From Nevskia sp. (GTDB taxonomy: Bacteria > Pseudomonadota > Gammaproteobacteria > Nevskiales > Nevskiaceae), in contig NZ_JAHFRY010000023.1 in the NCBI RefSeq assembly GCF_023266035.1, positions 1 to 39,262 of the forward strand: 39,262 nt of DNA, given 5' to 3'. Shown in pieces: positions 320 through 15,713 of this stretch (the first letter of the stretch is position 1; each line of letters starts with the position of its first letter). The notes beneath the pieces are model-generated. The model saw only the letters and a program-made list of their open reading frames with translations, was not told the DNA's origin and searched no databases. The position numbers and the translations under genes are program-made.

Positions 320-2089
320 TCAGGCCTTGCAGAGAATCTGTGCGAGCACGCGGCCCAGCACGTCCGAAGGATTTGTTTCCTTGCCGCTGGAGCGGAAGCC
401 CACATGGGTATCCGGACGAACCAGGATCGCGCCGCCTTCCTCGACCTGTTTCAGCTGCGCCCAGGTGCCAGTCGGATCGGCGTAGTCACCGCCCTCGCCG
501 ATCACATAGGCATCGATGGTCACGCCGTACTTCTTGGCAGCGGCGGCGGCGGCTTCCTTCCAGGCCTTGCCCTTGGCATCGGTCAGCAGCACGAAGCGGC
601 CATGACCGGTGATGTCGTGCGTCGACACTTTGCCGTTTGCGCCCTCCAGCCAGGCATGCGGCAGGCGATGACCGGGACGCGTGGTGACCACGTAGTTGAC
701 GCCCATCGGATCGCGTGCCGGTGCCGGCGTACCGTCGGCCACCACGGCGTTGCCGTCGTAGTGGAAGCCCATTTCCAGATCGTGGGCACAGAACTCCATG
801 CGCTGGGTCTGCAGCACTTCGTGCATGCGCGCGCGGGCCCAGTCGCCTTCGTAGCCTTCGGAGATCAGCGTGTGGAACGCGCCGGCATTGACCTCCGGCG
901 GCGCGCCCGGAATCAGGCCGAAGCCGGCATCAGTGACGAAGTGGTTCATGAACGTGAACAGCGCCCACTTGGTGTTGCGCGCGGCCACCGGGCGGCGCTC
1001 CTGCTCGTAGCTGTCGAGCAGTTTCAGCGATGCTTCGCCCTTGACCAGCGCAGTCAGCTTCCACGCCAGGTTGTGCGCATCCTGGATACCGGAATTCAGA
1101 CCCAGCCCGGTGGTCGGTGGATGGCGATGTGCCGCATCACCGATCACCACGCAGCGACCGCCCTGATACTTGTTGGCGAGGATCGCTTCGACGATCCAGT
1201 GGCTGACCTTGTGCACGTGGATGTCGAGGTCCGGCAGCTTCAGCAACTCGCGGATGCGCGGCACGATCACGCTTTCGTCGAAGTCCGGATCGCCGGGACG
1301 GAATGCGAAGTGGAACACCCATTCTTCCGAGCGCCGGTCGTAGTGCGTCGGGCCCATCGCCACCATCGCGCCACTGCCCCAGCCGCCGCCCCCTTCGGGG
1401 TTGATGAACCAGCGGATCAGTGGCGCATCGTCATCGATGTGCTTCGACAGGTCCGCAGTGAAATGCGTGCTGACCATGTCGATGAGATTGGTCGGGCCTT
1501 CCAGCTCGATGCCCAGCTTGGGGCCGATGGTGCGGCCACGATCGGCGCCGACCAGGAACTGCGAGCGCACCTGATAGGTCTCGCCGCTCTTGAGGTCCTT
1601 GATCAGCGAGGTCACGCCGTCGGCGTCCTGCTCGAAGCTCAGCAGCTCGTTGCCGAAACGCACGTCGCCCGGCGCGCCGCGTTCGGCGAAATCCTTGAGC
1701 ACCGGCTCCAGACGCAGCAGCGGCAGGTTGGCCGACAGCACGGCGCTGTCTCTGGTGTACATGTCATACAGCGCACCACCGCCGAAGGCATCCATGCGGT
1801 AGATGGTCTTCTGGTCGAGGGGGCCGTCGCCGCCCAGCGAGGTGAGCCAATGCACCTGGTGCATGTTCTCGAACTTGGTGCCGCGCTGGTAGATGGTGTC
1901 GGCAACGCCGTACTCGCGGAAAATTTCCATCGTCCGCTGGTTCAGGTAATGCGCCTTCGGTAGATGCGAAGTCGAATCGTGGCGCTCCACCAGCAGCGAC
2001 TTCGTGCCCTGCGCGGACAGGAAGATCGACAGGCTCAGGCCGGAACCACCACCGCCGCAGATCAGGACCGGCGTTTCGAGGGTTTTCAT
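320..2089 (-). CDS. FAD-dependent aromatic hydroxylase (PheA/TfdB-type monooxygenase)
   Basis: A 589-residue flavoprotein of the FAD_binding_3 family, close to the usual length of phenol/dichlorophenol hydroxylases. The N-terminal dinucleotide fold has GGGGSG at residues 12-17, followed by a strand ending in VER. The middle motif is GADRGR at 181-186, where most relatives have GADGGR/GADGAR. The C-terminal FAD ribityl motif is VIGDAAH with G317-D318, followed by GLGLNSGIQDAHNL. The last ~150 residues look like the thioredoxin-like C-terminal domain of this group. The expected reaction is NAD(P)H-dependent ortho-hydroxylation of a phenolic ring in the cytosol, giving a catechol for the divergently encoded extradiol dioxygenase. 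No strong Shine-Dalgarno precedes the ATG, which suggests coupling to the upstream Rieske gene 41 bp away. Confidence 0.9.
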   Translation of the reverse strand: MKTLETPVLICGGGGSGLSLSIFLSAQGTKSLLVERHDSTSHLPKAHYLNQRTMEIFREYGVADTIYQRGTKFENMHQVHWLTSLGGDGPLDQKTIYRMDAFGGGALYDMYTRDSAVLSANLPLLRLEPVLKDFAERGAPGDVRFGNELLSFEQDADGVTSLIKDLKSGETYQVRSQFLVGADRGRTIGPKLGIELEGPTNLIDMVSTHFTADLSKHIDDDAPLIRWFINPEGGGGWGSGAMVAMGPTHYDRRSEEWVFHFAFRPGDPDFDESVIVPRIRELLKLPDLDIHVHKVSHWIVEAILANKYQGGRCVVIGDAAHRHPPTTGLGLNSGIQDAHNLAWKLTALVKGEASLKLLDSYEQERRPVAARNTKWALFTFMNHFVTDAGFGLIPGAPPEVNAGAFHTLISEGYEGDWARARMHEVLQTQRMEFCAHDLEMGFHYDGNAVVADGTPAPARDPMGVNYVVTTRPGHRLPHAWLEGANGKVSTHDITGHGRFVLLTDAKGKAWKEAAAAAAKKYGVTIDAYVIGEGGDYADPTGTWAQLKQVEEGGAILVRPDTHVGFRSSGKETNPSDVLGRVLAQILCKA

Positions 2090-2130
2090 GTTGTTCTGGG
2101 ACGTTTCGTGATGGAGAGCGGGAATGGAGT

Positions 2131-3243
2131 TCAGACCACTGGCAGGATCGGCGAGCGGGACTGACCGTGCTGCTGGCGCAGACTCGACAGCACCGGGTTT
2201 TCAGGCCGGGGCACCGCCTGCTGTTCGCGCAGCCGCGCCAACAGCTTGCGAGCGCGCTGGGCGGCAGCATCGGAGGCGAACATCACCGGATCGACTTCCT
2301 CGAACGAGCGATCGCCGAGCATCCGCTGCTGGGCTTCGATGACCACCTGATCCTGGCCCTCGAACGCACCTTTGATGACCTGCCGCCACAACTCGCCGGC
2401 AGCCGGATCGTTCTGCTTGTAAGCGCGCGTGATGCCCCAGAAGTAGTAGGTGGTAGTCGCGTCCTTCGGTGTCAGGATGTCGGTGCCGTAGATCCAGGCG
2501 CCTTCGCCGCGCGGCCGTCCGGGATGGGCGATACCGACATCGAGCAGCATGTGCGCCGGCGCATCCCAGCGCATGTAGGCCCAGTGATCGACCGGATCAC
2601 CTTCCTTGTGGCCGTCGAAGATCATGTGGAAGGCCGGCATCGCATCACAGTTCGGCGCCCAGCGATTGGCGTAGATCGTCGTGCCCTGTTCGATCGTCTG
2701 CAGCTTGCTGGCGGTGTAGCCGGCACTGGACAGCAGGCCTTCGTGGACGAACTCCGAATGCGCGAGGTCGAGCAGGTTGTCGGTGATCAGTTCGTAGTGG
2801 GCTTTCATCTCGATGACGCCGCCGACGAAGGCCAGTTCCGGATCCTTGTGGCAGCTGAAATCAGGAATCGTCGCCGGATCGGCCTTGTCGACTTCGCCGA
2901 ACCACAGCCAGATCAGATTGTGGCGCTCGATGACCGGATAGCTCGCGGTGCGCATGCGCGTCGGGATCATGCCGTCGCCATGCGGGTTCAGTACGCAGGT
3001 GCCCGCACCGTTAAAACGTAGTCCGTGATACGGACACTGCACGGCGTCGCCGATCAGCTTGCCGAGATGCAGCGGCGCGTGACGATGCGGGCAGGCATTG
3101 CCGATCGCCACCGCATCGCCGTTCTCCTTGCGATAAAGCAGCACCGGCTGCTCGAGGATGGTTCGCTCCAGCAGGCTGCGACTAAGCTCGTTCGACCAGG
3201 CGGCGACATACCAGGCGTTGTTCAGATAGCGCGCAGTGGTCAT
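2131..3243 (-). CDS. Rieske non-haem iron oxygenase, VanA-like (370 aa)
   Basis: A single-component-type Rieske oxygenase terminal subunit. The Rieske [2Fe-2S] ligands are C51-x-H53 and C70-x-x-H73 (CPHRH and CPYHG). The mononuclear iron motif is NLLDLAHSEFVH, with bridging D159 and ligands H162 and H167. Size and motif order fit the vanillate O-demethylase/toluenesulfonate monooxygenase branch, which removes methyl groups or hydroxylates substituted rings. The start lies only 3 bp after the stop of the preceding Rieske gene, so the two are almost certainly translationally coupled. No VanB-type reductase is visible in the window, so electrons must come from a reductase encoded elsewhere. Family assignment is firm; the substrate is unknown. 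Confidence 0.93.
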   Translation of the reverse strand: MTTARYLNNAWYVAAWSNELSRSLLERTILEQPVLLYRKENGDAVAIGNACPHRHAPLHLGKLIGDAVQCPYHGLRFNGAGTCVLNPHGDGMIPTRMRTASYPVIERHNLIWLWFGEVDKADPATIPDFSCHKDPELAFVGGVIEMKAHYELITDNLLDLAHSEFVHEGLLSSAGYTASKLQTIEQGTTIYANRWAPNCDAMPAFHMIFDGHKEGDPVDHWAYMRWDAPAHMLLDVGIAHPGRPRGEGAWIYGTDILTPKDATTTYYFWGITRAYKQNDPAAGELWRQVIKGAFEGQDQVVIEAQQRMLGDRSFEEVDPVMFASDAAAQRARKLLARLREQQAVPRPENPVLSSLRQQHGQSRSPILPVV

Positions 3244-3246
3244 TGG

Positions 3247-4518
3247 CTATTCCGCCAGCGCTTCGCGGACCGTCGCCGAAGCCACCCATTTCTGGATGGT
3301 CTCGATCGAATGGCGGAGCAGGAATTCACCGTCCTGCAGAATGATTTCGGACTTGCCGCCGGACTCCATTGCCTTCTGCTGACGTTCCAGATTGCCGACG
3401 TCCTCGAGGAAGATTTCCGCCATCCGGCAGCTGTAGTGCTCTTGCTGGAAACGCTGGCGAACATCGGCAGCGACCGGCGTGTGCATTCTCGCCACCCAGC
3501 GCGTGGTGTTCACCGACAGCGGCCAGAACTCCAGAGTGAAGAAGCCGCCGGGTGAATAGAAAATCAGGAAGTTGGGAAACAGCCAGCAGATCTCGGTGGC
3601 CCAGTTCGGCACCTTGTTCGGGTTGATTGCCGGATGGTTCTGCAGCGCCTGCATGTCGGCTGCATCGTTGGCGCCCAGGGTGTTGCCGGTATCGATGTTG
3701 CTGTAGGCCAGTCGCTCGATCAGCGACGATTCCGGCGGCAGGTAGTTCGGGTTGCCGAAGGTGGTCATCGTGCGATGGGCGCCGCGCACGTTGCCGCTCA
3801 GCGGCCGCGCGTAGCGATTGCTATCGTTGGCGAAGGTGTCGCCCAGGGTCGACGGGTGCAGCACCGGCACGTGGTAGGACTCGCAGAAGGCATCGATGGT
3901 CACTTTCCAGTTGGCGCGCATGCTGGTCACGTCGACGGTGAACGCCTGCGTGGCGGCCGGGGCCGGCGCATCGCGGAAGGCTTCACCGAAGTTGCCGAGG
4001 AACTCGGTCAGCGTCACTTCCGGCTGCTTCTGCAGGTTGATGAAGATCCAGCCTTCCCAGGTCTCGCAGGCGATCGGCGTCAGGCCGCATTTCTTCATGT
4101 CCAGATCGAAGAAGTTGGCGCGATCGGGCACGCCGATGCAGTCGCCGGTATTGCGGTAAGCCCAGTTGTGATACTTGCAGACGAAGCGGCTGCCCTTGCC
4201 CGAGGTCTCGTGCACGACCAGGTTGGCGCGGTGCGAGCAGACGTTGTGGAAGGCGCGAATCTGGTCCTTGGCATCGCGGGTGATCAGCGCGATGACGCCG
4301 CAGATCTCGATTTCCTTGACCATGAAACTGTCGGCTTCCGGCAGCTGCTCGACCCGGCCCATGCACAGCCAGGCGCGGCCGAAGACGCGATCGCGTTCCT
4401 GCTCGTACCAGGCTTGGGAAATGTAGGGCGCGATCGGGATCGGCCCGGTGCCGAGGCCATTCGGCACGGTCAGCTTCGGGAATTCGGTGTTCGGCTTCGG
4501 CAGGTCAACGACACTCAT
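3247..4518 (-). CDS. Aromatic ring-hydroxylating dioxygenase alpha subunit (Rieske)
   Basis: A 423-residue Rieske oxygenase. An upstream in-frame TTG would add five residues, but the ATG at 4518 has GGGGAG a few bases upstream and is preferred. The [2Fe-2S] ligands are C94-x-H96 and C114-x-x-H117 (CSHR, CKYH). The catalytic-iron motif is FCESYHVPVLH: bridging E213 with H216 and H221. Glu instead of the usual bridging Asp is typical of the GbcA/CntA-like branch. Large alpha subunits often pair with a small beta subunit and a reductase; neither is adjacent. It follows a small unknown gene and overlaps the operon spacing of the VanA-like gene, so two different Rieske oxygenases are co-transcribed. 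Confidence 0.93.
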   Translation of the reverse strand: MSVVDLPKPNTEFPKLTVPNGLGTGPIPIAPYISQAWYEQERDRVFGRAWLCMGRVEQLPEADSFMVKEIEICGVIALITRDAKDQIRAFHNVCSHRANLVVHETSGKGSRFVCKYHNWAYRNTGDCIGVPDRANFFDLDMKKCGLTPIACETWEGWIFINLQKQPEVTLTEFLGNFGEAFRDAPAPAATQAFTVDVTSMRANWKVTIDAFCESYHVPVLHPSTLGDTFANDSNRYARPLSGNVRGAHRTMTTFGNPNYLPPESSLIERLAYSNIDTGNTLGANDAADMQALQNHPAINPNKVPNWATEICWLFPNFLIFYSPGGFFTLEFWPLSVNTTRWVARMHTPVAADVRQRFQQEHYSCRMAEIFLEDVGNLERQQKAMESGGKSEIILQDGEFLLRHSIETIQKWVASATVREALAE

Positions 4519-4572
4519 GGACACTCTCCCCAATCGAGAAACTGCGGCAAACGCGATACAGACGCTGGGCGA

Positions 4573-4947
4573 TCACCAGCCTTGCGGCCAGGGTCCCCGG
4601 CCGATGTGCATGCCGTGTGGAAAGGGCGAAGCGGCGGCGCGCGGCTGACCGTGGAATTCCACCGCCATCGCCGCATGCGGCAGCGACAGCAGCAGGCGCA
4701 GCAGCCGGGTCGCGTCGTCCGGCATCGCAGCTAGCGGAAACTGTTCGAGATACGCCAGGCCTTCATCGGCACGCGGCACGGCCGCTTCGTAGAAGCTGCG
4801 GATCTCGGCCATCGAAGCGCGAGCCCGGCGATCCCAGCGGATGTCGTTGGTCGCGCCCGCCCAGTAGTCGACAAAGGGCTCCAGCGCCTCGAAGCCCGCA
4901 GGCAAGGAATTGGGCAGCGAAGCCGGCAATGAAGTCTGCATCCGCAT
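4573..4947 (-). CDS. Small uncharacterised protein within the oxygenase operon
   Basis: A 124-residue protein that I do not recognise. The ATG at 4947 follows a good Shine-Dalgarno (GAGAGGAG) and is preferred to the longer open frame that would run into the FAH gene. The sequence looks mainly helical, with a run of acidic and aromatic residues (FEALEPFVDYWAG, FYEAAVP) and a Leu-rich helix (LLRLLLSLPHAAMAVEFHG). It ends in a Gly/Pro/His-rich tail (HGMHIGRGPWPQGW). There is no signal peptide or membrane segment. It sits between the FAH-family hydrolase (73-bp gap) and the Rieske alpha subunit (54-bp gap) in the same direction. An accessory or assembly role for the oxygenase is only a guess from position. 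Confidence 0.75.
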   Translation of the reverse strand: MRMQTSLPASLPNSLPAGFEALEPFVDYWAGATNDIRWDRRARASMAEIRSFYEAAVPRADEGLAYLEQFPLAAMPDDATRLLRLLLSLPHAAMAVEFHGQPRAAASPFPHGMHIGRGPWPQGW

Positions 4948-5020
4948 CAGCGTCTCCTCTCTCGCAGGGAACGATCCGCACTCTGTCGGCGCGGTTCGCC
5001 GGTAGCTTTGCCGCTTTGCT

Positions 5021-5881
5021 TCAGCGCGGCTCGGGTTCGACCCGGTTCTCGATCGCGCCCAGGCCTTCGATCTCGATGCGCACCACATCGCCAGCCTTCA
5101 GGTAGCGCGGCGGCTTCGACACGGCGCCGACACCGGCCGGCGTGCCGGTCAGCAACAGATCACCCGGTTCCAGGGTCATCGCCTGCGACAGGTGTTCGAT
5201 CATCGCGTAGACATCGAAAACCATTTCACGAGTATTGGAGTCCTGGCGGACTTCTCCATTCACGGTGGCGCGGATGGCCAGCGCCTGCGGATCGGCGATC
5301 TCGTCGGCGCTGGTGATCCACGGCCCGAACGGGCAATGCGTGTCGAAGGACTTGCCGACCACGAACTGCGAGGTGCGCAACTGCCAGTCACGGACGCTGA
5401 CATCGTTGGCGCAGCAGTAACCGGCGATCGCGGCCTTGGCCTGCTCGCGCGTGGCATGGCGAACCTTCTTGCCGATGACGATGGCCAGCTCGGCTTCGTA
5501 GTCGAGCCTGGTCGAAACACTGGGCAGATCGACGTTGCTGTGAGGACCATTCGCGGAGGTCGTCATCTTCGCGAACCAGGTCTGCACTTCCGGCAGCGCC
5601 ATGTTCGCTTCCAGCGCGTGATCGCGATAGTTCAGGCCCAGCGCCAGAATCTTGCCGGGGCGCGGAATCGGCGCCAGCAGATGCACATCGGTCAATGCGT
5701 GGTCAGGCTGGGCGGCGGCGATCTTGTCCAGATCGGCACGCAGGCCCGGCAGCGCTTCCAGCAGGCCGAGCATCGTCACCGGAGCCTGCGGCAGATGGCG
5801 CGCAATGTCGTGCAAGCCATCACCGACGACCAATCCGATCCGTGCCTTGCCGCCATTCACGGTGTACGTCGCAAGCTTCAT
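5021..5881 (-). CDS. Fumarylacetoacetate hydrolase (FAH) family protein
   Basis: A 286-residue FAH-superfamily enzyme. The start at 5881 is fixed by GGAGGAGAG just upstream; the longer open frame to 6154 would cross the divergent promoter. It has the hallmark GLNYRDHA (residues 82-89) and the metal ligands E129, E131 (in DYEAELAIVIGK) and D160 (in CCANDVSVRDWQ), then the TGTPAGVG loop near the C-terminus. Family members cleave C-C bonds in fumarylpyruvate or acylpyruvates, or isomerise and decarboxylate meta-cleavage products. As first gene of the leftward operon opposite an extradiol-type dioxygenase, it probably processes the ring-cleavage product. The exact reaction (hydrolase, isomerase or decarboxylase) cannot be told from sequence alone. 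Confidence 0.93.
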   Translation of the reverse strand: MKLATYTVNGGKARIGLVVGDGLHDIARHLPQAPVTMLGLLEALPGLRADLDKIAAAQPDHALTDVHLLAPIPRPGKILALGLNYRDHALEANMALPEVQTWFAKMTTSANGPHSNVDLPSVSTRLDYEAELAIVIGKKVRHATREQAKAAIAGYCCANDVSVRDWQLRTSQFVVGKSFDTHCPFGPWITSADEIADPQALAIRATVNGEVRQDSNTREMVFDVYAMIEHLSQAMTLEPGDLLLTGTPAGVGAVSKPPRYLKAGDVVRIEIEGLGAIENRVEPEPR

Positions 5882-5944
5882 CGTCTCTCCTCCAGCGGTC
5901 CACTTTGAAAATGGACTCAAGTCTTGTCTTCGATTGGCGTGCAA

Positions 5945-6053: not shown

Positions 6054-6719
6054 ATGAACGCAGACAGTCTGGCGACCACGCCGGCGCGAACCCAGGCAGC
6101 GGCTCCGGCCAAGGCACCGGAAAGCAGGTCGGACGGCACAATCGTGCCGACCAAGCTCGCGCATTACGTCATCCGCGCCAAGCATTTCGAAGCGATGCTC
6201 AGCTGGTACCGCACGGTGTTCCACCTGCGCACCACCTTCGAAGCGCCGGTGATCGCCTTCCTCAGCTATGACGAGGAACATCACCGCATCGCCTTCCTGA
6301 ACACCGCGCATCTGCCCAGCCCGGACACGATGCGCACCGGCATCGACCACGTCGCTTTCACCTATGCCGATCTGCCAGCGCTGCTGCACACCTGGCAGCG
6401 GCTGAAGGCTGAAGGCATCGCGCCGTTCTGGTGCATCAATCACGGCCCGACCACCTCGATGTATTACCGCGATCCGGATGGCAACGAGGTCGAGCTGCAG
6501 GTCGAGAACTTCGACACGCTGGCCGAATCGACAGCCTGGTTCAGCTCGGCGGCATTCGAGGCCAATCCGATCGGTGTCGATTTCGATCCCGAGGCGCTCA
6601 GCGCCAAACTGCACAGCGGTACGCCGATCAACAATCTGCTGCAGCAGGGCGCAGCACCAGTTGCGCCGGGTAAGGCCTATCAGTTCACGACGCTGCCACC
6701 GCCGCCAGGTGCAGCATGA
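6054..6719 (+). CDS. VOC-family (extradiol-type) dioxygenase
   Basis: A 221-residue protein of the vicinal oxygen chelate superfamily. The ATG at 6054 follows GGAGAGGAG and is chosen over the upstream ATG at 5997, which lies in the promoter. One VOC module is clear. H37 (LAHYVIRAK), H99 (GIDHVAFTY) and E147 (in DPDGNEVELQVEN) form the usual 2-His-1-Glu metal site, with H130 (INHG) as a likely active-site acid/base. The Ala/Pro-rich N-terminus (residues 1-28) looks disordered, and residues 155-221 form an extension. The likely reaction is Fe(II)-dependent cleavage of a catecholic ring, matching the hydroxylase and FAH genes in the divergent operon. A glyoxalase-like or other VOC activity remains possible. 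Confidence 0.88.
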   Translation: MNADSLATTPARTQAAAPAKAPESRSDGTIVPTKLAHYVIRAKHFEAMLSWYRTVFHLRTTFEAPVIAFLSYDEEHHRIAFLNTAHLPSPDTMRTGIDHVAFTYADLPALLHTWQRLKAEGIAPFWCINHGPTTSMYYRDPDGNEVELQVENFDTLAESTAWFSSAAFEANPIGVDFDPEALSAKLHSGTPINNLLQQGAAPVAPGKAYQFTTLPPPPGAA

Positions 6720-7209: not shown

Positions 7210-9903
7210 ATGTCCGCAGAAAATCCTCGTGCCCGTGGTCTGTCCACCGTCAGCCTTCCCGATGGCGATCCGCAGGAAACGCGCGAATGGCTGGATGCGC
7301 TGGATTCTGTGCTCGCGGGCGGCGGCGGCGAGCGTGCGCAGTATCTGATCCAGCAGCTCGAAGCACGTCTGCGCGACCGTGGCGCCGTGGCGCTGGCGCA
7401 GCCGTACTCGTCCTATCGCAACAGCGTGCCACTCGATCAGCAGGGCGCCTATCCGGGCGATCTGGCGATCGAGGAACGGATCGTGGCGATCCTGCGCTGG
7501 AATGCGCTGGCGATGGTGATGCGCGCCAACGCCGCGTATGGCGATCTCGGCGGCCATGTCGCGAGCTATGCGTCGGCAGCGGAAATCTTCGAAGTCGGCT
7601 TCCAGCATTTCTTCCATGCCCGCAGCGACAGCCACGGCGGCGATCTCATCTACTTCCAGCCGCATTCGGCGCCTGGCGTCTACGCCCGCGCTTTCCTGGA
7701 AGGCCGCCTGAGCGAAGACCAGCTCGGCCACTACCGGCAGGAACTCGCCGGCGGCGGCCTGTGTTCGTATCCGCATCCCTGGCTGATGCCGGAGTTCTGG
7801 CAGTTCCCCACCGGCTCGATGGGTCTGGGCCCGATCAGCGCCGTCTACCAGGCGCGCTTCCTGCGCTATCTGCGTGATCGCAAGCTCAGCGCCACCGATG
7901 GTCGCCACGTCTGGGGCGTGTTCGGCGATGGCGAAATGGACGAGCCGGAATCGATCGCCGGCCTCACCCTCGCCGCTCGCGAGAAGCTCGACAACCTGAC
8001 GTTCATCGTCAACTGCAATCTGCAGCGCCTCGACGGCCCGGTGCGCGGCAACGGCCAGATCATCCAGGAGCTGGAGGCGCTGTTCACCGGCGCCGGTTGG
8101 AACGTCATCAAGGTGCTCTGGGGTTCGGACTGGGACGCGCTGTTCGCCCGCGACACCGAACACACCCTGCTGCGCATCTTCGCCAACACGCCGGACGGCG
8201 AGTACCAGACGCTGGGTGCCAAGGACGGCGCCTACAACCTCGCCAACTTCTTCCAGCAGGACCCGGCGCTAGCCAAGCTGGTGGCGCACATGTCCGATGC
8301 CGAGATCGATGCGCTGAAGCGCGGCGGTCATGATCTGCGCAAGCTGCACGCGGCATTCGCGGCCGCCAAGGCCCACAAGGGCCGGCCCACGGTGATCCTG
8401 GCGAAGACCAAGAAAGGCTATGGCATGGGCAGCGCCGGTGAATCGCGGATGACGTCGCACCAGGCCAAGAAGCTCGACATCGAAGGCCTGAAGGTATTCC
8501 GCGACCGCTTCCATCTGCCGCTGTCCGACGAGGACTGCGCCAGCCTGCGTTTCTATCGTCCTGCCGAGGACAGCATCGAGCTGCGCTACCTGCGCCAGCG
8601 TCGCGAAGCGCTCGGCGGCTATCTGCCGGCGCGTCGCGCCAAAGCCGATGCCGTGCCGGTGCCGGCCGTCGACAGCTACGCCGCATTCGCGCTGCAGGCC
8701 GACGGCAAGGAGATGTCGACGACGATGGCCGCCGTGCGCATGCTCGGTGGCCTGCTCAAGGACAAGCAGCTGGGCCCGCGCATCGTGCCGATCGTTGCCG
8801 ACGAAGCGCGCACCTTCGGCATGGCCAATCTGTTTAGGCAGGTCGGCATCTATTCGCCGGTCGGCCAGCTGTACGAACCGGAAGATGCGTCATCGATGCT
8901 GTCGTATCGCGAAGCGACCGATGGTCAGTTGCTCGAAGAGGGCATCAACGAAGCCGGTGCCCTCGCCTCGTGGACCGCGGCCGCCACCTCGTACAGCGTC
9001 AGCGGCGTGCCGATGCTGCCGTTCTACATCTACTACTCGATGTTCGGCTTCCAGCGAGTCGGCGATCTGATCTGGGCTGCGGCCGATCAGCGCGCCCGCG
9101 GCTTTCTGCTCGGCGCCACCGCCGGCCGCACCACCTTGGGCGGCGAAGGTCTGCAGCATCAGGACGGCAGCAGCCAGCTGATCGCGTCCACGGTGCCCAA
9201 CTGCCGCAGCTACGACCCGACCTTCGCCGGCGAACTCGCCGTGATCCTCGACCACGGCATGCGGCGCATGCTGGAACAGCAGGTCGACGAGTTCTATTAC
9301 CTCACCGTGATGAACGAGAACTACGCGCAGCCGTCCTTGCCGGCGGATGTGCACGAAGCCGTCATCAAGGGCCTGTATCGCTACGGCGGCCAGGCGCCGA
9401 AAAAGCCAGTCGCCAAGGTCCGCCTGATCGGTTCCGGCACGATCTTCCGCGAAGTGATCGCCGCCGCCGAACTGCTGGCCCAGGACTGGAACATCGGCTC
9501 CGATCTGTACAGCGCCACCAGCTTCAGCGAGCTGTCCCGTGACGCTGCCGACGTACAGCGCTGGAATCGCCTGCATCCGCTGGAGACGCCGCGTCTCAGC
9601 CATCTGGAAACGCTGCTGGCTGGCGACGCGCCGGTGATCGCCGCCACCGATTACGTGCGCGCCTATCCGCAGCTGATCGCACCGTATCTGCAGAGCCGCT
9701 TCGTCACGCTCGGCACCGACGGCTTCGGCCGCAGCGATACGCGGCAGGCGCTGCGCCGCTTCTTCGAGGTGGATCGTCACGGCGTGGTGCTGGCAGCGCT
9801 CGATGCGCTGGTACGCGATGGAAAGATCAAGGCGAGCCTGCTGGCCGAGGCCATCGCCCGCTACGGAATCGAACCCGACAGCAGCGCGCCCTGGACGCGC
9901 TGA
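7210..9903 (+). CDS. aceE: Pyruvate dehydrogenase E1 component, homodimeric type
   Basis: An 897-residue thiamine-diphosphate enzyme that aligns end to end with E. coli AceE (887 aa) from memory. It oxidatively decarboxylates pyruvate (or a related 2-oxo acid) and transfers the acyl group to lipoyl-E2. The ThDP motif starts at GDGEMDEPES (239-248) and ends at NCNLQ (268-272). The active-site loop keeps His in TSHQAKK, and the segments DEARTFGM, FYIYYSMFGFQR and TDGFGRSD are intact. The E2-docking N-terminus (ETREWLDALDSV, ERAQYLIQQL) is also kept. GGAGG lies before the ATG. No E2 or E3 gene is near; it is flanked by catabolic genes instead, so it may be a pathway-specific E1 using the housekeeping E2/E3. 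Confidence 0.96.
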   Translation: MSAENPRARGLSTVSLPDGDPQETREWLDALDSVLAGGGGERAQYLIQQLEARLRDRGAVALAQPYSSYRNSVPLDQQGAYPGDLAIEERIVAILRWNALAMVMRANAAYGDLGGHVASYASAAEIFEVGFQHFFHARSDSHGGDLIYFQPHSAPGVYARAFLEGRLSEDQLGHYRQELAGGGLCSYPHPWLMPEFWQFPTGSMGLGPISAVYQARFLRYLRDRKLSATDGRHVWGVFGDGEMDEPESIAGLTLAAREKLDNLTFIVNCNLQRLDGPVRGNGQIIQELEALFTGAGWNVIKVLWGSDWDALFARDTEHTLLRIFANTPDGEYQTLGAKDGAYNLANFFQQDPALAKLVAHMSDAEIDALKRGGHDLRKLHAAFAAAKAHKGRPTVILAKTKKGYGMGSAGESRMTSHQAKKLDIEGLKVFRDRFHLPLSDEDCASLRFYRPAEDSIELRYLRQRREALGGYLPARRAKADAVPVPAVDSYAAFALQADGKEMSTTMAAVRMLGGLLKDKQLGPRIVPIVADEARTFGMANLFRQVGIYSPVGQLYEPEDASSMLSYREATDGQLLEEGINEAGALASWTAAATSYSVSGVPMLPFYIYYSMFGFQRVGDLIWAAADQRARGFLLGATAGRTTLGGEGLQHQDGSSQLIASTVPNCRSYDPTFAGELAVILDHGMRRMLEQQVDEFYYLTVMNENYAQPSLPADVHEAVIKGLYRYGGQAPKKPVAKVRLIGSGTIFREVIAAAELLAQDWNIGSDLYSATSFSELSRDAADVQRWNRLHPLETPRLSHLETLLAGDAPVIAATDYVRAYPQLIAPYLQSRFVTLGTDGFGRSDTRQALRRFFEVDRHGVVLAALDALVRDGKIKASLLAEAIARYGIEPDSSAPWTR

Positions 9904-9943: not shown

Positions 9944-10702
9944 ATGGCGAAGGTGAACAACAAGGCGATCATCGTCACCGGCGGCGGCAGCGGTGTCGGC
10001 CGGGCCGCGGCGCTGCTGCTGACTGCCGAAGGCGCCCGCGTGATGGTGGCCGATACCAACGAAGCCGGCGGACTTGAAACCATGAAGCTCTGCGAGCAGG
10101 CCGGCGGCGTAGCGCATTTCATCCGCACCGACATCGCCAGCGAAGCCGAGGTGCAGAAGATGGTCGAGGCCACCGTTGCCGCGTTCGGCCGGCTCGACGG
10201 CGCGTTCAACAATGCAGCCATCCCGCAGATCAGCAAGCTGATTCACGAAATGCCGCTGGCCGAATGGCAACGCGCGCTGGACGTGAATCTCACCGGCACT
10301 TTCCTGTGCATCAAGCACGAGGTGAAGGCGATGCTCGCAAACGGCGGCGGCTCGATCGTCAACACCGCCTCTGCTGCCGGCGCGACCGCGTTCCCGATGG
10401 CGGCGGAATACGTGTCGAGCAAGCACGCGGTGGTCGGCCTGACCAAGGCAGCCGCGGTGGACTACGGCAAGCAAGGCATCCGCGTGAACGCGATCCTGCC
10501 CGGCGCGATCCGTACGCCGATGCTGACCGGCAAGTTCGCCGAGGACCCGAACCTGGAGCCCTACCTGAACTCGGTGCACCCGATTGGCCGTTTCTCCGAG
10601 CCGGAGGAAATCGCCGCCGCAGCGGTATGGCTGCTGTCCGACGACGCCTCGTTCGTGCATGGCAGCAGCCTGTCCGTCGACGGCGGCTACATCGCGATGT
10701 AG
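9944..10702 (+). CDS. SDR family oxidoreductase (classical, 252 aa)
   Basis: A complete classical short-chain dehydrogenase of typical length. It has TGGGSGVG near residues 12-19, NNAA at about 90, the catalytic Ser in NTASAAG, and YVSSK (Tyr-x-x-x-Lys) near residue 155. PGAIRTPM and the C-terminal SLSVDGGYIAM also fit. An acidic residue after beta-2 (VADTNEAGG) suggests NAD(H) preference. The start is supported by GAGAGGAG. It lies 40 bp after aceE in the same direction and probably oxidises or reduces a hydroxy or keto intermediate of the degradation route. The substrate cannot be read from the sequence. Confidence 0.95.
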   Translation: MAKVNNKAIIVTGGGSGVGRAAALLLTAEGARVMVADTNEAGGLETMKLCEQAGGVAHFIRTDIASEAEVQKMVEATVAAFGRLDGAFNNAAIPQISKLIHEMPLAEWQRALDVNLTGTFLCIKHEVKAMLANGGGSIVNTASAAGATAFPMAAEYVSSKHAVVGLTKAAAVDYGKQGIRVNAILPGAIRTPMLTGKFAEDPNLEPYLNSVHPIGRFSEPEEIAAAAVWLLSDDASFVHGSSLSVDGGYIAM

Positions 10703-10783: not shown

Positions 10784-10797
10784 CAGGCGATCATCTA

Positions 10798-11325
10798 GTG
10801 AAAGGCATCGAGCGTTTGTCGGCTGTCGAATCGAGCACGCCGCGGATGTCGCGGGCGTTGCCGGACATGCCGATGGCGCCAACCGTGCTGGTCCGCCTGA
10901 TCCGCATCAGCAGCTTTGGCCTCGGCAATTTCTTCGAGCCGGTGTTCCGCGCACTCGGCACCAGCGAGCACGCCTTCCATGCGCTGTGCCTGCTGGTGGC
11001 CAGCGAACAAGGTTCGGCGGCGCCGAGTGAACTCAGCGAAATGATCGGCACCAGCCGCGCCAACACCACGCGCATCGTCGAGGAACTGGTGCAGGCCGAA
11101 CGGGTCACCCGCAGCGTTCACGCCCGCGATGGCCGCCGTCACGAAATCGCGATCACCGCCGCCGGCCGCCAGGCCGTGCGCGACATCGTGCCGAAGATGA
11201 TCGAGCCGCTGGAACGCGCCTTCTCGGGCCTGAGTGCCGAAGAGTTCGCGCTGCTCGACCAGCTGCTGCGCAAGCTGATCGTGTCGCTGGACAACAGTGC
11301 GCGGGCGATGAGCGCCGCCGCCTGA
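10798..11325 (+). CDS. MarR family transcriptional regulator
   Basis: A 175-residue MarR-type winged-helix protein with a GTG start at 10798. The HTH is PSELSEMIGTSRANTTRIVEEL (about residues 79-100). The wing is RDGRRHEIAITAAG, carrying the DxR motif that contacts DNA, and dimerisation helices lie on both sides. The N-terminal ~25 residues look disordered, so a later start (for example a Met near residue 17 or 24) is possible. MarR regulators of aromatic degradation usually repress until an aromatic ligand or its CoA thioester binds. A palindrome directly upstream suggests autoregulation, and control of the flanking catabolic genes is likely by position. Confidence 0.92.
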   Translation: MKGIERLSAVESSTPRMSRALPDMPMAPTVLVRLIRISSFGLGNFFEPVFRALGTSEHAFHALCLLVASEQGSAAPSELSEMIGTSRANTTRIVEELVQAERVTRSVHARDGRRHEIAITAAGRQAVRDIVPKMIEPLERAFSGLSAEEFALLDQLLRKLIVSLDNSARAMSAAA

Positions 11326-11393
11326 TTTCGCTGGAAACAAACGATTTCATCAGTCCGTCGACGACGATCGACACAACGTGGGGGAGCGTGGAA

Positions 11394-12134
11394 ATGGATG
11401 AGAAAACGAGTCTGCGGTATCAGCTGATCAGCGCCTGGTGCGGCCCGGCGTTCGTGGTCACCTTCGTCATCTTCTGGCTGATCCTCGGCCACAACCTGCC
11501 GAATCCCTCGCCTTCCCTGACGGCTGTGGCGCTGAAGGAGCGTTACCTCGGCAACCTCGGCGAGATCCGCCTCGGCTTCATCATCTCGATGATCACCGTC
11601 TGCCTGTACATGCCGTGGAGCTGCGTGCTCGCCGGCCAGATGCAGCGCATCGAAGGCAAGAACATGCCGCTGCTGTCCTACCTGCAGCTGATCGGCGGTG
11701 CGCTCACGGTGATGGTCGTTTCGTTCAGCGCGATGTTCTGGGCGGTTGCCGCATTTCGTCCCGACGCCAGCCCGGAAACTTTCCAGCTGATGACCGATAC
11801 CGGCTGGCTGTGCATCGATCTGCAGTACGCCTGCACCACCTTGCAGATGGTTGCCGCAGCGCTGGTCGGCCTGGCCGACAAGAGCAAGGTGCCGCTGTTC
11901 CCGCGCTGGGTCTGCTACCTGACCATCTGGTGCGGCATCAGCTTCTTCCCGGCCAGCCTCACCGGCGTGATGAAGACCGGCCCGTTCGCCTGGAGCGGCG
12001 TGCTGAGCTTCTACTTCCCGTACTTCTGCTGGCTCTGCTGGTTCTCCACCGCCAGCATTTTCATGATCAAGGAAATCCGTCGCCGGATGGCCGTTGCCGA
12101 GCCGGTTGGCTCCAGCCGTCTCGCGGCTGCCTGA
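11394..12134 (+). CDS. Six-TM membrane protein of unknown function
   Basis: A 246-residue integral membrane protein. The ATG at 11394 is 7 bp after GGGGGAG; an in-frame GTG two codons earlier is too close to that site. Six hydrophobic segments are visible at roughly residues 15-35, 60-82, 95-118, 140-160, 172-192 and 200-224. Cys, Trp and Tyr are unusually frequent (WCGPAFVVTF, FYFPYFCWLCWF), and the C-terminus is basic (IRRRMA). I do not recognise a named family. It precedes the NorE/NorF-like pair in the same direction, so it may form a membrane complex with them. An alternative is an importer or sensor for the aromatic substrate. Confidence 0.85.
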   Translation: MDEKTSLRYQLISAWCGPAFVVTFVIFWLILGHNLPNPSPSLTAVALKERYLGNLGEIRLGFIISMITVCLYMPWSCVLAGQMQRIEGKNMPLLSYLQLIGGALTVMVVSFSAMFWAVAAFRPDASPETFQLMTDTGWLCIDLQYACTTLQMVAAALVGLADKSKVPLFPRWVCYLTIWCGISFFPASLTGVMKTGPFAWSGVLSFYFPYFCWLCWFSTASIFMIKEIRRRMAVAEPVGSSRLAAA

Positions 12135-12150
12135 TCTAGCGTTCCTGCTC

Positions 12151-12234
12151 CTTCCCCCGTTCGCGGGGGAAGCTTGGGATGGGGCGGCTGGCTGCAGCGC
12201 CCTCTCCCCGGCCCTCCCCCGCTCACGGGGAGGG
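12151..12234. repeat. Pair of GC-rich hairpins (REP-like intergenic element)
   Basis: The gap between the 6-TM gene and the NorE-like gene holds two hairpins. The first is CTTCCCCCG (12151-12159) with loop TTCG and CGGGGGAAG (12164-12172). The second is CCCTCCCC (12212-12219) with GGGGAGGG (12227-12234). A CCCTCTCCCCGG segment lies between them. This composition resembles widespread bacterial intergenic C-rich/G-rich palindromes and may attenuate or stabilise the transcript. Confidence 0.6.
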
Positions 12235-12269
12235 AGTTCGCTGTTCCTTATCCCCGAAGACAATCCACC

Positions 12270-12869
12270 ATGCCAGTCGAGCTGACGGCCCCTGCCTCTG
12301 CTGAATCAAAGTCGGTGCTGCGCCTGCCCGGCGATCCCGACATCTGGTTCCTGATCTTTGCCGAGCTGATGACCTTCGGCATGTTCTTCGTCGCCTACGT
12401 GGGCTATCGCGCCCTCGAAGTCGATCTGTTCAACGAGTCCCAGCTGTCGCTGGACCGGACGCTTGGCGTCATCAACACGCTGTTCCTGCTGACCAGTTCC
12501 TGGGCCGTGGTGACCGCGATCGAATCGGCCCGCAAGAACCAGGTCAAGGCAGTGCCTCGCTATCTGGCGCTGGCCATCGCCCTCGGCGTCGGCTTCATGG
12601 TCATCAAGTATTTCGAGTACTCGGCGAAGTTCGCGGTCGGCATCTCGCTGACGACCAACACCTTCTTCAATTTCTATTTCGCGTTGACCATGATCCATCT
12701 GGTCCACGTGATCGGCGGCACCATCGTGCTGATCGTGCTCTGGAGCAATGCCCGAGACGGCAAGTACCACGCCGGCAATACCCGCGGCCTGGAGACGGGT
12801 GCGAGCTTCTGGCACATGGTCGATCTGCTGTGGATCTTCCTGTTCCCGCTGCTGTACCTGCTCCGCTGA
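12270..12869 (+). CDS. Cytochrome c oxidase subunit III-like (NorE-type) membrane protein
   Basis: A 199-residue protein of the haem-copper oxidase subunit III family, in the short NorE-like form with about five membrane helices. Recognisable parts are PGDPDIWFLIFAELMTFGMFF (start of helix 1), LTSSWAVVTAIESAR, a helix with FALTMIHLVHVIGGTIVL, and a C-terminal SFWHMVDLLWIFLFPLLYLL. The helix positions and the H-x-x-H and WHxVD motifs match the family. Subunit III normally stabilises the catalytic core (subunits I and II). Those genes are absent here; only a subunit-IV/NorF-like partner follows 12 bp downstream. The start follows a non-SD leader behind the hairpin repeat. Confidence 0.88.
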   Translation: MPVELTAPASAESKSVLRLPGDPDIWFLIFAELMTFGMFFVAYVGYRALEVDLFNESQLSLDRTLGVINTLFLLTSSWAVVTAIESARKNQVKAVPRYLALAIALGVGFMVIKYFEYSAKFAVGISLTTNTFFNFYFALTMIHLVHVIGGTIVLIVLWSNARDGKYHAGNTRGLETGASFWHMVDLLWIFLFPLLYLLR

Positions 12870-12881
12870 GGACGCCCGACG

Positions 12882-13172
12882 ATGCCCGCCATCCTGCTCA
12901 ATCCACACCGCACCTGGCTGATCCTGGTGATCGCGACCGCGGCCACCTTCTGGGTGCGCGCCGATGGCCTGGTCGGCATCACTGCTGGCGCTGCCACCCT
13001 GGCGATCGCCGCGATCAAGGGCCGCCTGGTGATCCTCGATTTCATGGAACTGCGCCATGCGCCGAACCCCTGGCGCAGCGTCATCAGCGGCTGGCTGATG
13101 CTGGTCACCGTGCTGCTGATGGTGGTCTATGCCTTCGGCCCCAGCCTGCTGGCCGGCGTCGCCAAACCCTGA
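12882..13172 (+). CDS. Cytochrome c oxidase subunit IV-like (NorF-type) small membrane protein
   Basis: A 96-residue protein with three predicted membrane helices (about residues 10-26, 29-45 and 66-89). The family mark is KGRLVILDFMELRHAP followed by a Trp (PWRSVISGW), as in COX4_pro/NorF-like proteins. It follows the NorE-like gene by 12 bp and its stop overlaps the start of the damaged acyl-CoA dehydrogenase gene (TGATG). Together with the NorE-like protein it forms an orphan pair without an oxidase catalytic subunit in the window. In denitrifiers NorEF assist nitric oxide reductase; nothing here points to denitrification. Confidence 0.85.
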   Translation: MPAILLNPHRTWLILVIATAATFWVRADGLVGITAGAATLAIAAIKGRLVILDFMELRHAPNPWRSVISGWLMLVTVLLMVVYAFGPSLLAGVAKP

Positions 13173-13884
13173 TGCTTCCGAACGACGACCAACGTTCCCT
13201 GCAGGAAGCCGCCCGCTGCGTCGCACTCGGGCGGCGGCTGCCGACTTACATGCAGCGGGAGAAGGACGCCGGACAAGACAAACCTACCGATCGTGCACTG
13301 CTGCATGAGATGGGCACGCTGGGCTTGCTGGGCGTCGATAGCGTCACCACCGGCCTGATCGTCGAGGAACTGGCCTACGGCGATTTCAACATCAGCGCCA
13401 TCGTGCTGGTGATCTCGCTGTGTGGCGCGATCATCGCGAAGAACGCACAGCCGGCAGTCGCAGCGGTTGGGCTGCCGCGCATCCGGCGCGGCGATGCGAT
13501 CCTGGCGCTGTCGATCACCGAACCTGGTGTTGGTTCGGATGCCGGCGCACTGAAGCTGCAGGCCACACGCGACCGCGACGCCTATGTGCTGAACGGCAAG
13601 AAAGCCTCGACCACTTACTGCGACTACGCGATGCCGGCCAGGCGCATACGGTCGAGGCCGCAATGGTCAAATGGCTGGCGCCGCGTGCCGCCTTCGATGT
13701 CATCCACCAGTGCCTGCTGACCTTCGGCCATTGCGGCTGGACCATGGACCTGCCGCATCAGCAGCGGATGCGCGATGTCATGGGTCTGGAAATCGGCGAT
13801 GGCATGGCTGGCATCATGAAGATGATCGTCGCCCACGCTCGCGCCGGACGGGCCACGACCGAAGAACGAGGCACTGCCGCATGA
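13172..13884 (+). pseudogene. Acyl-CoA dehydrogenase, broken by internal deletion and frameshift
   Basis: The N-terminal half reads from ATG 13172 (MLPNDDQRSLQEAA) through LSITEPGVGSDA and VLNGKKAS, the flavin/substrate-contact part of acyl-CoA dehydrogenases. After YCDYAMPA (about 13635) the frame turns to nonsense. The family C-terminus then appears in another frame from about 13639 (QAHTVEAAMVKWLAP, FGHCGWTMDLPHQQRMRDVMG, GDGMAGIMKMIVA), ending at TGA 13882-13884. About 155 and 81 residues remain against a normal ~380, so about 150 central residues are missing, including part of the FAD-binding region. The start overlaps the NorF-like stop, so it was part of the rightward operon. An intact acyl-CoA dehydrogenase at 30.6-31.8 kb is not a close copy. 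Confidence 0.88.
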
Positions 13885-14325
13885 GCGATGGTTTTCACTG
13901 CTCCACTGATCACGCAGGAAGCTGTACCGAATAGCAGGGTGCCGTGGACCAAGCCCGCATAGTCGGGCGCGTTCGCGGGAGGAGAAGTGCCCCATGTCAT
14001 CGACGGCGAAGGATTCGCCATTGATGACAGGTTTTCAGGGGCCAAGGCTGAGGGGAGTGTCTAGGATGGCGCGCCGATCCCGGTGGCCGCGCAAGCGGTC
14101 ACCGGGCATCCGGTGCCAGTCTCAGGCACGAAGCTGCAAGCCGAAAATCAATCATCGGCCGCACGTCGAGCAGCACGAACCGGAGGCATCAGCATGTCGA
14201 ACCAGATGCTGTACGGGACGCAGGGCGAAGTCGCCACCCTGTACTCGGGATCGATGACTTCGATCACCACGGACTCAGCGGATGAGACGGTGACCCGCAA
14301 GATCTTCTGCGGCGTCTGCGGATGA
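13885..14325 (+). pseudogene. Decayed coding sequence, possibly a thiolase C-terminus
   Basis: There is no intact gene between the broken dehydrogenase and the enoyl-CoA hydratase. One forward frame carries protein-like sequence interrupted by TAG codons: VPWTKPA*, then GGEVPHVIDGEGFAIDDRF..., then *DGAPIPVAAQAVTGHPVPVSGTK, and a final part with MLYGTQGEVATLY. The order GHPxxxSGTK, then AARxGxxxM, then GxQGxxATLY resembles the C-terminal active-site segment of thiolases (GHPxGxSG ... GGGQG). The similarity is weak. A small ORF at 14194-14325 with a good Shine-Dalgarno (CCGGAGG) and a C-terminal CGVC could be read, but is more likely part of the same remnant. 14326-14418 shows nothing further. 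Confidence 0.4.
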
Positions 14326-14418
14326 ACGCTGCACAAGCTGCAGACGCGCGCGTGATCGAAGCTGCCACGCCATGAACCGTCTCTTCCCTGCCAACAATCC
14401 CAGCACCAACCGCAAACC

Positions 14419-15231
14419 ATGAACGCCAAGATCCTCTACGAAAAAGACGGCGCGATCGCGCGGATCACGTTCAATCGCCCTGAGCGCAAGAACGCCATCG
14501 ACCTCGAGATGCATCACCGGCTCGGCGAGATCTGGCGTGATTTCCGTGATGACCCGGAACTGAGAGTCGCGATCATCACCGGCACCGGCGATGCCTTCTG
14601 CGCCGGCGCCGATCTGAAAACCCACGTGCCGGAATGGGACGGCGTCGGCCCCAGCCTCGGCCGCGACAAGTTGCTCGACGGCTTCGCCGGCGGCATCACC
14701 CGCGGCGTCCACCGCATCTACAAGCCGATCATCGCGGCCTGCAATGGCTGGGTACTTGGCGGCGGCCTGGAACTGGCGATGGCCTGCGACATCCGCATCG
14801 CCTCCGAGCGCGCCCAGTTCGGTTCCTTCGAATTGCGCCGCGGCATGCATCCGGCTGATGGCGGCATCGTCCGTCTGGTCAACACCTGCGGCGTCGGCAT
14901 CGCGCTGGAAATGGAATTGACCGGCGAGCCGATCGATGCCCAACGCGCGCTGGCCTGCAACATGGTGTCGAAGGTCGTGCCGCACGATCAGCTGATGGCG
15001 GCCGTCGAGGACATGGTTGCCAAGATCCTGCGCAACGATCGCCGCGCGGTGGAATCGGCGAAGGAAACCATCTTCGAGGTGATCGGCCGCACGCTCGACG
15101 AGCAGCTGAAAGTGGAATGCCTGTACGGCTACGCGCTGTGCGGCGGCAATCAGGAACTGAACCGGCGCTCTCAGGAATTCCTCGACAAGAAGGACAAGGG
15201 CCGGGTCGGCGTCAACGCCAACTCGCTCTGA
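14419..15231 (+). CDS. Enoyl-CoA hydratase/isomerase family protein
   Basis: A 270-residue crotonase-fold enzyme. The two oxyanion-hole segments are CAGADLK (61-67) and GWVLGGGLELA (110-120). Both catalytic glutamates are present at the right 20-residue spacing, E118 (GGGLELAMACD) and E138 (GSFELRRG), matching E144 and E164 of rat mitochondrial hydratase. It is therefore likely to be an active hydratase. It would add water to an enoyl-CoA in side-chain or ring-derived acyl-CoA degradation, in the cytosol. It lies just behind the decayed acyl-CoA dehydrogenase and is coupled to a thioesterase gene 2 bp downstream. No strong Shine-Dalgarno is seen before the ATG. Confidence 0.95.
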   Translation: MNAKILYEKDGAIARITFNRPERKNAIDLEMHHRLGEIWRDFRDDPELRVAIITGTGDAFCAGADLKTHVPEWDGVGPSLGRDKLLDGFAGGITRGVHRIYKPIIAACNGWVLGGGLELAMACDIRIASERAQFGSFELRRGMHPADGGIVRLVNTCGVGIALEMELTGEPIDAQRALACNMVSKVVPHDQLMAAVEDMVAKILRNDRRAVESAKETIFEVIGRTLDEQLKVECLYGYALCGGNQELNRRSQEFLDKKDKGRVGVNANSL

Positions 15232-15233
15232 AG

Positions 15234-15713
15234 ATGACTTCGAACCCGCCCGCCGACACCGTGAACGACCCGCTCAACGAGCCACGTCTGAAACAGCGCG
15301 CCGCCTACGGCCACTGGATCCACGAGCACGTGCGCTGGTCCGACACCGACATGGCCGGCCATGCCAACAACCTGGCCTTCGCCGCCTTCGCCGAAACCGG
15401 CCGCGCCATCCTGCTGCGCCGCTTCATGGCGCCGGATGCCGATCCGCGGGCGTTGCTGGTGCTCGCCGAATTCCGCATCAAGTATCTGAGCGAAGCCTAC
15501 TGGCCGTCCGCGGTCGAGGTCGGCACTGGCGTGTCGACCATCGGTACCCGCTCCTGCCGCATGGTCCAAGGCCTGTTCATCGCCGAGCAGTGCATCGCGG
15601 TCGCCGAATCGGTGCTGGTGATGATCGACGAAAGCACGCGCCGTTCCGCCGACATTCCCCCGGCAGTCCGCAGCCTGCTGGAGACGTTCCGGATCGGGGA
15701 TTCCGTGGCCTGA
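15234..15713 (+). CDS. Acyl-CoA thioesterase, 4HBT hot-dog family
   Basis: A 159-residue hot-dog-fold protein starting 2 bp after the enoyl-CoA hydratase stop. The 4-hydroxybenzoyl-CoA thioesterase signature is RWSDTDMAGHANN (D-x-D-x-x-G-H-x-N), followed by a helix (FAAFAETGRAILLRRF) and strands with EFRIKYLSEAYWPS. Residues 1-25 look like a flexible extension. It would hydrolyse an acyl-CoA, releasing CoA from an intermediate or a dead-end thioester. The motif Asp is present, so activity is likely. It is the last gene of the rightward catabolic series. Confidence 0.9.
   Translation: MTSNPPADTVNDPLNEPRLKQRAAYGHWIHEHVRWSDTDMAGHANNLAFAAFAETGRAILLRRFMAPDADPRALLVLAEFRIKYLSEAYWPSAVEVGTGVSTIGTRSCRMVQGLFIAEQCIAVAESVLVMIDESTRRSADIPPAVRSLLETFRIGDSVA

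Follow-up and report, generated by a model that had tools for sequence, protein, structure and literature searches.

Positions 1 to 39,262 of the Nevskia sp. contig NZ_JAHFRY010000023.1 (the window) carry within their first 16 kb a real and so far uncharacterised aromatic catabolic cluster. At its centre are an FAD monooxygenase (FADMO), two Rieske oxygenases (Rieske1 and Rieske2), an unannotated protein of ~124 amino acids (p124), an FAH-superfamily protein, a VOC-family protein and an E1 enzyme of the pyruvate dehydrogenase (PDH) type. A first-pass annotation, made from the DNA letters, had described positions 320-15713 as an aromatic catabolic locus with a set of genes unlike that of any standard pathway. 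That description stands: all genes it named are present as judged by family matches, and no characterised counterpart of the combination was recognised in the open-access literature (subscription literature was not covered). The chances are even, in our judgement, that these genes are the central part of a larger cluster by which a substituted aromatic compound is broken down, acting in the order of steps proposed below.

The core genes lie in two divergent groups. The reverse strand encodes FADMO (320-2089), a group-A FAD monooxygenase of the aromatic-ring hydroxylase kind (PF01494, E 2e-87; PF21274, E 9e-20), residues 4-583 of which match 2,4-dichlorophenol 6-monooxygenase (PDB 6u0p, E 1e-111); 2-hydroxybiphenyl 3-monooxygenase is matched as well. 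On the same strand are Rieske1 (2131-3243), a VanA-type Rieske monooxygenase (PF19112, E 1e-43; PF00355), and Rieske2 (3247-4533), a Ring_hydroxyl_A-type alpha subunit (PF00848, E 2e-26) with a Glu218-His221-His226 motif, whose closest solved relatives are phthalate, biphenyl and carnitine oxygenases. The p124 gene (4573-4947) and the FAH gene (5021-5887; PF01557, E 2e-74) are also on this strand. The forward strand begins with the gene for the single-domain VOC protein (6054-6719; PF00903), followed by one for a SnoaL_4/NTF2-like protein (6716-7120; PF13577, E 2e-22), a possible isomerase or cyclase, and by that for the homodimeric E1 (7210-9903). The oxygenase iron ligands are intact, as the first-pass annotation held. 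Both Rieske proteins retain the CxH...CxxH and [D/E]xxHxxxxH motifs, and VOC residues H37, H99 and E147, which we take to be the 2-His-1-carboxylate ligands, are invariant in 27 of 27 aligned rows (the window and 26 of the 41 VOC loci described below).

The nearest solved relative of the FAH protein is L-2,4-diketo-3-deoxyrhamnonate hydrolase (8gsr, E 5e-58), and hydrolysis of a diketo-type acid is favoured for this reason; the isomerase/decarboxylase 1gtt, maleylpyruvate hydrolase 6jvv and the acylpyruvase FAHD1 match further down. It is thus a probable acylpyruvate-type C-C hydrolase. The AlphaFold2 (AF2) model of the VOC protein (pLDDT 86) has as its top PDB match 9u42 (E 5e-9, 22% identity), titled homogentisate 1,2-dioxygenase, from Acinetobacter, and this entry is also first with the sequence profile (E 3e-15). 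From its family, ligands and partners the VOC protein is a probable ring-cleaving dioxygenase. Taken together, the relatives of FADMO, VOC and FAH would fit a sequence in which a ring is hydroxylated and opened and a 1,3-dioxo acid is then hydrolysed.

The VOC, FAH and flavin hydroxylase genes constitute a recurring module. A five-row VOC alignment, run against species genomes, picked out 41 loci, which were annotated by tblastn using proteins of the window, related genomes and plasmid records as queries, with partners counted within at most 10 kb. FAH is found at 27 of the 41 and a hydroxylase at 30, the latter being a group-A FAD monooxygenase in 27 cases and a two-component monooxygenase resembling acyl-CoA dehydrogenases in 3. 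A thiamine diphosphate (ThDP) enzyme that oxidises 2-oxo acids is present at 18 loci (8 MdeB/AceE-type E1, 9 IOR-type and 1 divergent E1), at 17 of them together with FAH. E2 genes occur at 6/41, NTF2-like genes at 8/41 and Rieske1 relatives at 4/41. The present 4.5 Mb genome has two AceE-type genes, and we estimate that a random 20-kb stretch would hold one in ~1% of cases. Plasmids gave 22 records with a VOC match, and in the nine regions examined, two of which were partly chosen for a known E1 match, FAH is present in 9/9, an FAD monooxygenase in 8/9, a 2-oxo-acid enzyme in 5/9 and AACS or BKACE in 5/9 (once ~26 kb from the VOC gene). Since AACS or BKACE genes stand near VOC/FAH in Rhodococcus, Sphingobium, Cupriavidus, Mycolicibacterium and Novosphingobium, a beta-keto acid product is suggested. 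The neighbourhood check that had been proposed for the locus shows that FAH, VOC and FAD monooxygenase genes are widely found together, whereas the full set of FAH, p124, both Rieske genes and VOC recurs at only one other locus examined, that of Panacagrimonas perspica. On a plasmid of a peanut Bradyrhizobium (L111:2688-11203) a carotenoid-oxygenase-family gene accompanies IOR, VOC, NTF2 and FAH genes; this family includes stilbene-cleaving enzymes.

The E1 had been read as an ordinary AceE, which it is not. It scores 1580.3 bits against TIGR03186, the MdeB-type exception model with a curated cut-off of 1408.3, and in a midpoint-rooted tree of 22 proteins it falls, with its Nevskiaceae and groundwater relatives, inside an 18-row MdeB-side group (support 100/99). 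The window E1 is thus MdeB-type. The other AceE of the genome, on contig C30, is placed apart from it; this separate AceE and the placement with MdeB rule out the window enzyme as the housekeeping pyruvate dehydrogenase. The VOC/FAH-linked E1 proteins from Burkholderiales and from Pseudomonas jinjuensis group in a clade of their own; the deltaproteobacterial one, on a long branch, lies on the AceE side of the tree. MdeB is active on 2-oxobutyrate, and its gene is expected next to that for methionine gamma-lyase (mdeA). Here VOC/FAH genes adjoin instead, and no methionine gamma-lyase gene was found among the annotated window neighbours of E1. Streptomyces, Rhodococcus sp. IEGM 1409, Mycolicibacterium and Bradyrhizobium carry an IOR-type enzyme in place of the E1; the E1 of R. 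rhodochrous pNit is of the PDH type and divergent. It is mainly because of this repeated replacement by other 2-oxo-acid oxidoreductases that oxidation of a 2-oxo acid is placed in the pathway. No IOR was found among the genes of the first 16 kb of the window, nor by a whole-genome search run without a positive control. In Paraburkholderia D15 the E1 and E2 genes directly precede VOC and FAH. A plasmid of Martelella mediterranea (L141:4965-12646) carries consecutive mdeB, E2 and lpdA genes, followed directly by a longer VOC gene and FAH.

The p124 protein is probably the founder of a new family of small proteins, to judge from profile searches. The window member has no match in Pfam (E<=1) or NCBIfam and none of note in the PDB (best E 0.18), and 24 members of the family give only scattered unrelated matches in Pfam and NCBIfam at E<=1 (8 weak Pfam matches, best E 0.019). 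An AF2 model built from a three-row alignment is helical and of low confidence, with no PDB fold match at E<=0.001. The null matches and the helical model rule out an NTF2-like beta subunit (PF00866), and the PF00866 beta gene that stands beside the alpha gene in standard alpha-beta ring-hydroxylating dioxygenases is absent from this position. The auxin iadDE system was also considered as a source of small Rieske partners and rejected, the p124 profile matching no such PDB chain; in that system IadE is described as serving as small subunit within a canonical alpha3beta3 complex (PMC12633357, in extract). No paper describing a small helical Rieske partner was recognised in the same open-access literature.

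A p124-type gene adjoins, on the same strand, all 25 Rieske2-type hits (one containing a stop codon) found in 12 of 100 genomes, the window's included, as counted with a profile grown from three seeds by iteration over those same loci. Eight more distant Rieske proteins in the loci examined have no p124-type neighbour. Across 58 genomes of the family there are 25 p124 hits in 12 genomes, of which 24 adjoin a Rieske gene and the 25th is at a contig end. The p124 gene is upstream of the Rieske gene in 14/24 and downstream in 10/24, with -6 to 108 bp between the profile matches. Because adjacency is kept through this change of gene order, it argues for a working partnership of p124 with Rieske2, in which p124 might act as a subunit, as a chaperone or in some other way. 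A sample of 398 genomes from the phylum gave p124 in the window's own genome only, at most 11 first-look candidates per genome having been scored in many genomes, so that some p124 genes may be missed.

Plasmids carry the same pair. p124 is matched in 17 records and Rieske2 in 19, and by coordinates the two are side by side in nine (twice in Novosphingobium resinovorum). In each of five further Rieske2 records the adjoining 'hypothetical protein' matches the p124 profile, giving p124 beside Rieske2 in 14/19. One of these five records has a second such protein, and all six plasmid proteins that tblastn had missed match the profile at E<=2e-19, as do three that it had found, and six control neighbours fail (E 0.64 or worse). 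The other five Rieske2 records comprise four truncated Rieske copies (three Sphingobium and AB244976) and Sphingobium V4, which was not examined. Seven of the 17 p124 records, from sphingomonads (MM-1, TKS, MI1205, B90A), show no intact Rieske2 match adjoining; NBWT7 was not examined. In plasmid pSRL1 of the hexachlorocyclohexane degrader Sphingobium indicum B90A a p124 homologue (L155:4968-5330) lies between linC/EthD genes and IS6100, and no Rieske gene is annotated in the 10 kb examined there. The tree of Rieske proteins does not support monophyly of those linked to p124: it needs two changes, a single change suffices in only 6% of bootstrap trees, and long branches meet there. We consider it an open bet, with equal weight on either side, that p124 represents a new obligate partner family of a Rieske oxygenase subfamily and that PDH-type complexes were recruited more than once to act after VOC/FAH cleavage. 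On this reading p124 may be a small subunit or assembly factor, unlike the usual beta subunit, and the Rieske subfamily may span alpha-, beta- and gammaproteobacteria as well as Rhodococcus.

The gene order of the locus is shared with G002, with G010 (a genome of the same genus) and with P. perspica DSM 26377 of the same family, at 61-99% identity per gene, and because it recurs in all three it exceeds what chance would give. The oxygenases are exchanged within this frame. Rieske1 relatives are present at 71-81% in three Nevskiaceae loci, and in G002 and G010 the Rieske1 position is occupied by a second FAD monooxygenase, ~51% identical to the first; P. perspica has both. A search of these four genomes found no Rieske1 orthologue in G002 or G010, an absence that is provisional as the assemblies are incomplete; the best match there, at 38-39%, is a gene with a counterpart in the window genome too. 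Conversely, no second FAD monooxygenase was found in the window genome, which is likewise incomplete and the absence provisional, the sole match (52%) being FADMO itself.

The stretch 320-15713 is not the entire locus, as had been claimed, for it is cut at the left and damaged at the right. The window is a single contig of a fragmented 4.5 Mb assembly (243 contigs). An SDR gene (1-290, reverse strand) starts at ~290, where it matches the start of SDR3 of G002, and runs off base 1; in G002 FADMO precedes SDR3. Judged from the uninterrupted G002 locus, the remainder of this gene is apparently at the end of contig C105, which goes on with another Rieske2-p124 pair and the genes for SDR2, SnoaL2 and a zinc-type dehydrogenase, together with TetR genes, APH-type kinases and DUF7064 proteins, two of each. 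In G002 a run of this type and the window core are contiguous over ~26 kb. Plasmid pSA1 of N. resinovorum has, at ~80-145 kb, two Rieske2-p124 pairs, FAD monooxygenases, FAH, VOC and SnoaL2, together with TetR2, APH, DUF7064-type, zinc-type dehydrogenase, SDR and BKACE genes. These share ~31-78% identity with the proteins that served as queries; no Rieske1, E1 or IOR is among the matches. Since pSA1 holds counterparts of both, it supports a predicted single pathway for the C105 and window genes. Part of C105 (L043:966-6551) shows two pairs of an APH-type kinase and a ~180-residue protein without clear family, besides the two DUF7064 proteins. A 'DUF6285' label for two C105 proteins found no support: Pfam gave nothing for the one scanned, and of the two proteins NCBIfam left one without any match and the other with a weak, unrelated one.

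To the right of E1, on the forward strand, are genes for an SDR oxidoreductase (9944-10702; PF13561), a MarR-family regulator (10798-11325; PF01047), a membrane protein without Pfam or NCBIfam match (11388-12134; 99% kept in G002 and G010), a cytochrome c oxidase subunit III family protein (COX3-like, 12210-12869; PF00510) and a prokaryotic COX subunit IV family protein (COX4_pro, 12882-13172; PF03626). The last three genes (11388-13172) are kept at 94-99% in G002 and G010. Comparison with G010 identifies 13175-14320 as a disrupted acyl-CoA dehydrogenase and what remains of a molybdopterin oxidoreductase. In G010 the acyl-CoA dehydrogenase is intact and is accompanied by the molybdopterin oxidoreductase and a 4Fe-4S ferredoxin, and the contig ends within a reductase gene of which it holds the start; the match to G010 jumps ~425 bp at window positions 13624-13629 and stops at 14320. 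This damaged stretch, the SnoaL_4 gene and the contig-edge SDR were missing from the earlier gene list. Past the break lie an enoyl-CoA hydratase/isomerase (ECH, 14419-15231; PF00378), which was not found between COX4 and the thioesterase in G002, and a 4HBT-type thioesterase (15237-15713; PF13279), 88% identical in G002. Further along, at 19435-21723, a 762-residue open reading frame has by eye the look of a pyrroloquinoline quinone-type dehydrogenase with a C-terminal haem c motif, and is 95% identical in G002.

Gene content, conservation, co-occurrence of the module, the MdeB-type affiliation of E1 and the pairing of p124 with Rieske2 are seen directly, and a pathway can be proposed from them. 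Rieske2 with p124, and Rieske1, would oxidise or remove ring substituents, for instance an O-methyl group, after which FADMO, from its family, would add a ring hydroxyl. The VOC protein would then cleave the dihydroxylated ring, and FAH would split the resulting 1,3-dioxo acid into a 2-oxo acid and a second acid, in some relatives probably a beta-keto acid. The MdeB-type E1, with a lipoyl E2 whose gene is beside E1 in some relatives and not here, would oxidatively decarboxylate the 2-oxo acid to an acyl-CoA. The SDR, ECH, thioesterase and C105 enzymes might process the remainder. A resorcinol-type or C-methylated substrate, such as orcinol or lichen compounds, is a guess, prompted by one lichen isolate and by the genes for acetoacetate-CoA ligase and for beta-keto acid cleavage.

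The closest known analogues share parts of this scheme. Gentisate/homogentisate-type pathways likewise use a hydroxylase, a ring-cleaving dioxygenase and an FAH-superfamily hydrolase, and the top match of the VOC model points the same way, although at so low an identity, and with FosA-type chains scoring nearly as well; what sets the present locus apart is its pair of Rieske oxygenases, p124 and the MdeB-type 2-oxo acid dehydrogenase. In the fde (naringenin) and ifc (isoflavone) clusters an FAD monooxygenase comes ahead of a ring dioxygenase of the glyoxalase family (PMC11069340, in extract), but ifc employs cupin IfcD enzymes and in fde FdeE is described as working with the Rieske electron carrier FdeD (PMC8552027, in extract). 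The extracts name neither a Rieske alpha subunit with p124 nor an E1 for fde or ifc, a distinction drawn from descriptions. Rieske1 shares the VanA_C and Rieske domains of the vanillate O-demethylase VanAB; no VanB-type reductase was found among the proteins scanned from the first 16 kb of the window or from C105 (10 proteins).

Several observations weigh against the proposed pathway. No E2 gene was found beside the window E1, and PF00198 has a single match in the whole genome. Isomerases and decarboxylases belong to the FAH family too and match the window protein, and the VOC fold is about equally close to FosA/FosB and glyoxalases. AACS or BKACE (>=40% identity) is seen at just 2/41 VOC loci, no 2-oxo-acid enzyme was found with the queries used at 23/41, some of them contig-cut, and 8/41 (L064, L065, L073, L083, L087, L091, L095, L096) have no counted partner. 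Nor are the loci independent: 8 of the 9 IOR loci are from Streptomyces or Rhodococcus, L064 and L068 belong to one genome, L058 and L060 repeat relatives that had entered the comparison before, several loci come from close relatives, and several are contig-cut. Finally, part of the cluster is broken: in the window the acyl-CoA dehydrogenase is disrupted and only the initial portion of the molybdoenzyme is left. This last point could mean that the locus is decaying in this strain and the pathway no longer runs to its end, the molybdoenzyme/ferredoxin/reductase block of G010 being missing. The ring-attack genes are nevertheless intact with their ligands kept, and G002 also lacks the block between COX4 and the thioesterase, yet its shared core genes are ~90-99% identical; we hold decay to be the least probable of the three alternatives weighed here.

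The order of cleavage and oxidation might also differ. The edc/oec cluster for estrogen 4,5-seco degradation in Novosphingobium tardaugens and Sphingomonas KC8 shares with the window a proposed hydroxylation, ring cleavage and oxidative decarboxylation to an acyl-CoA by a 2-oxo-acid oxidoreductase, and two divergent operons, with a small VOC gene between edcB and edcC (PMC7793797; review PMC12507874; both in extract). EdcC, an IOR, acts on the meta-cleavage product, as tested genetically (PMC7793797, in extract), and because of this precedent an oxidative 2-oxo-acid step after ring cleavage is plausible. By analogy the E1 complex, here PDH-type in place of the IOR, could act directly on the VOC product to give an acyl-CoA before hydrolysis, FAH serving later or on a branch, and a polycyclic or terpenoid phenol could be the substrate; IOR and VOC genes occur together in Streptomyces and Bradyrhizobium. 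However, FAH is present at 17 of the 18 loci with a 2-oxo-acid enzyme, which suits hydrolysis on the main line, and the window differs from edc/oec in having an FAH-family gene; the word 'fumarylacetoacetate' does not occur in the main text of the edc paper (PMC7793797). This scheme is unlikely, if the strongest of the three. That the MdeB-type E1 is a passenger, oxidising pyruvate or 2-oxobutyrate of general metabolism and merely near aromatic genes, is improbable: MdeB genes do occur on other plasmids in other contexts, with E2/Lpd or carboxylase genes, but Nevskia, Panacagrimonas, a groundwater gammaproteobacterium and the separate Burkholderiales/Pseudomonas clade all retain the E1 next to VOC, and IOR-type enzymes take that place in Streptomyces, Rhodococcus and Mycolicibacterium.

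If the preferred reading of hydroxylation, VOC cleavage, FAH hydrolysis and 2-oxo acid oxidation is correct, an uncharacterised module of hydroxylase, VOC dioxygenase, FAH and 2-oxo-acid oxidoreductase would recur from Nevskia to Streptomyces, with one of three types of ThDP enzyme at its final step. For Rieske oxygenases now annotated as alpha subunits alone, next to a 'hypothetical protein', the p124 family would provide a missing component.

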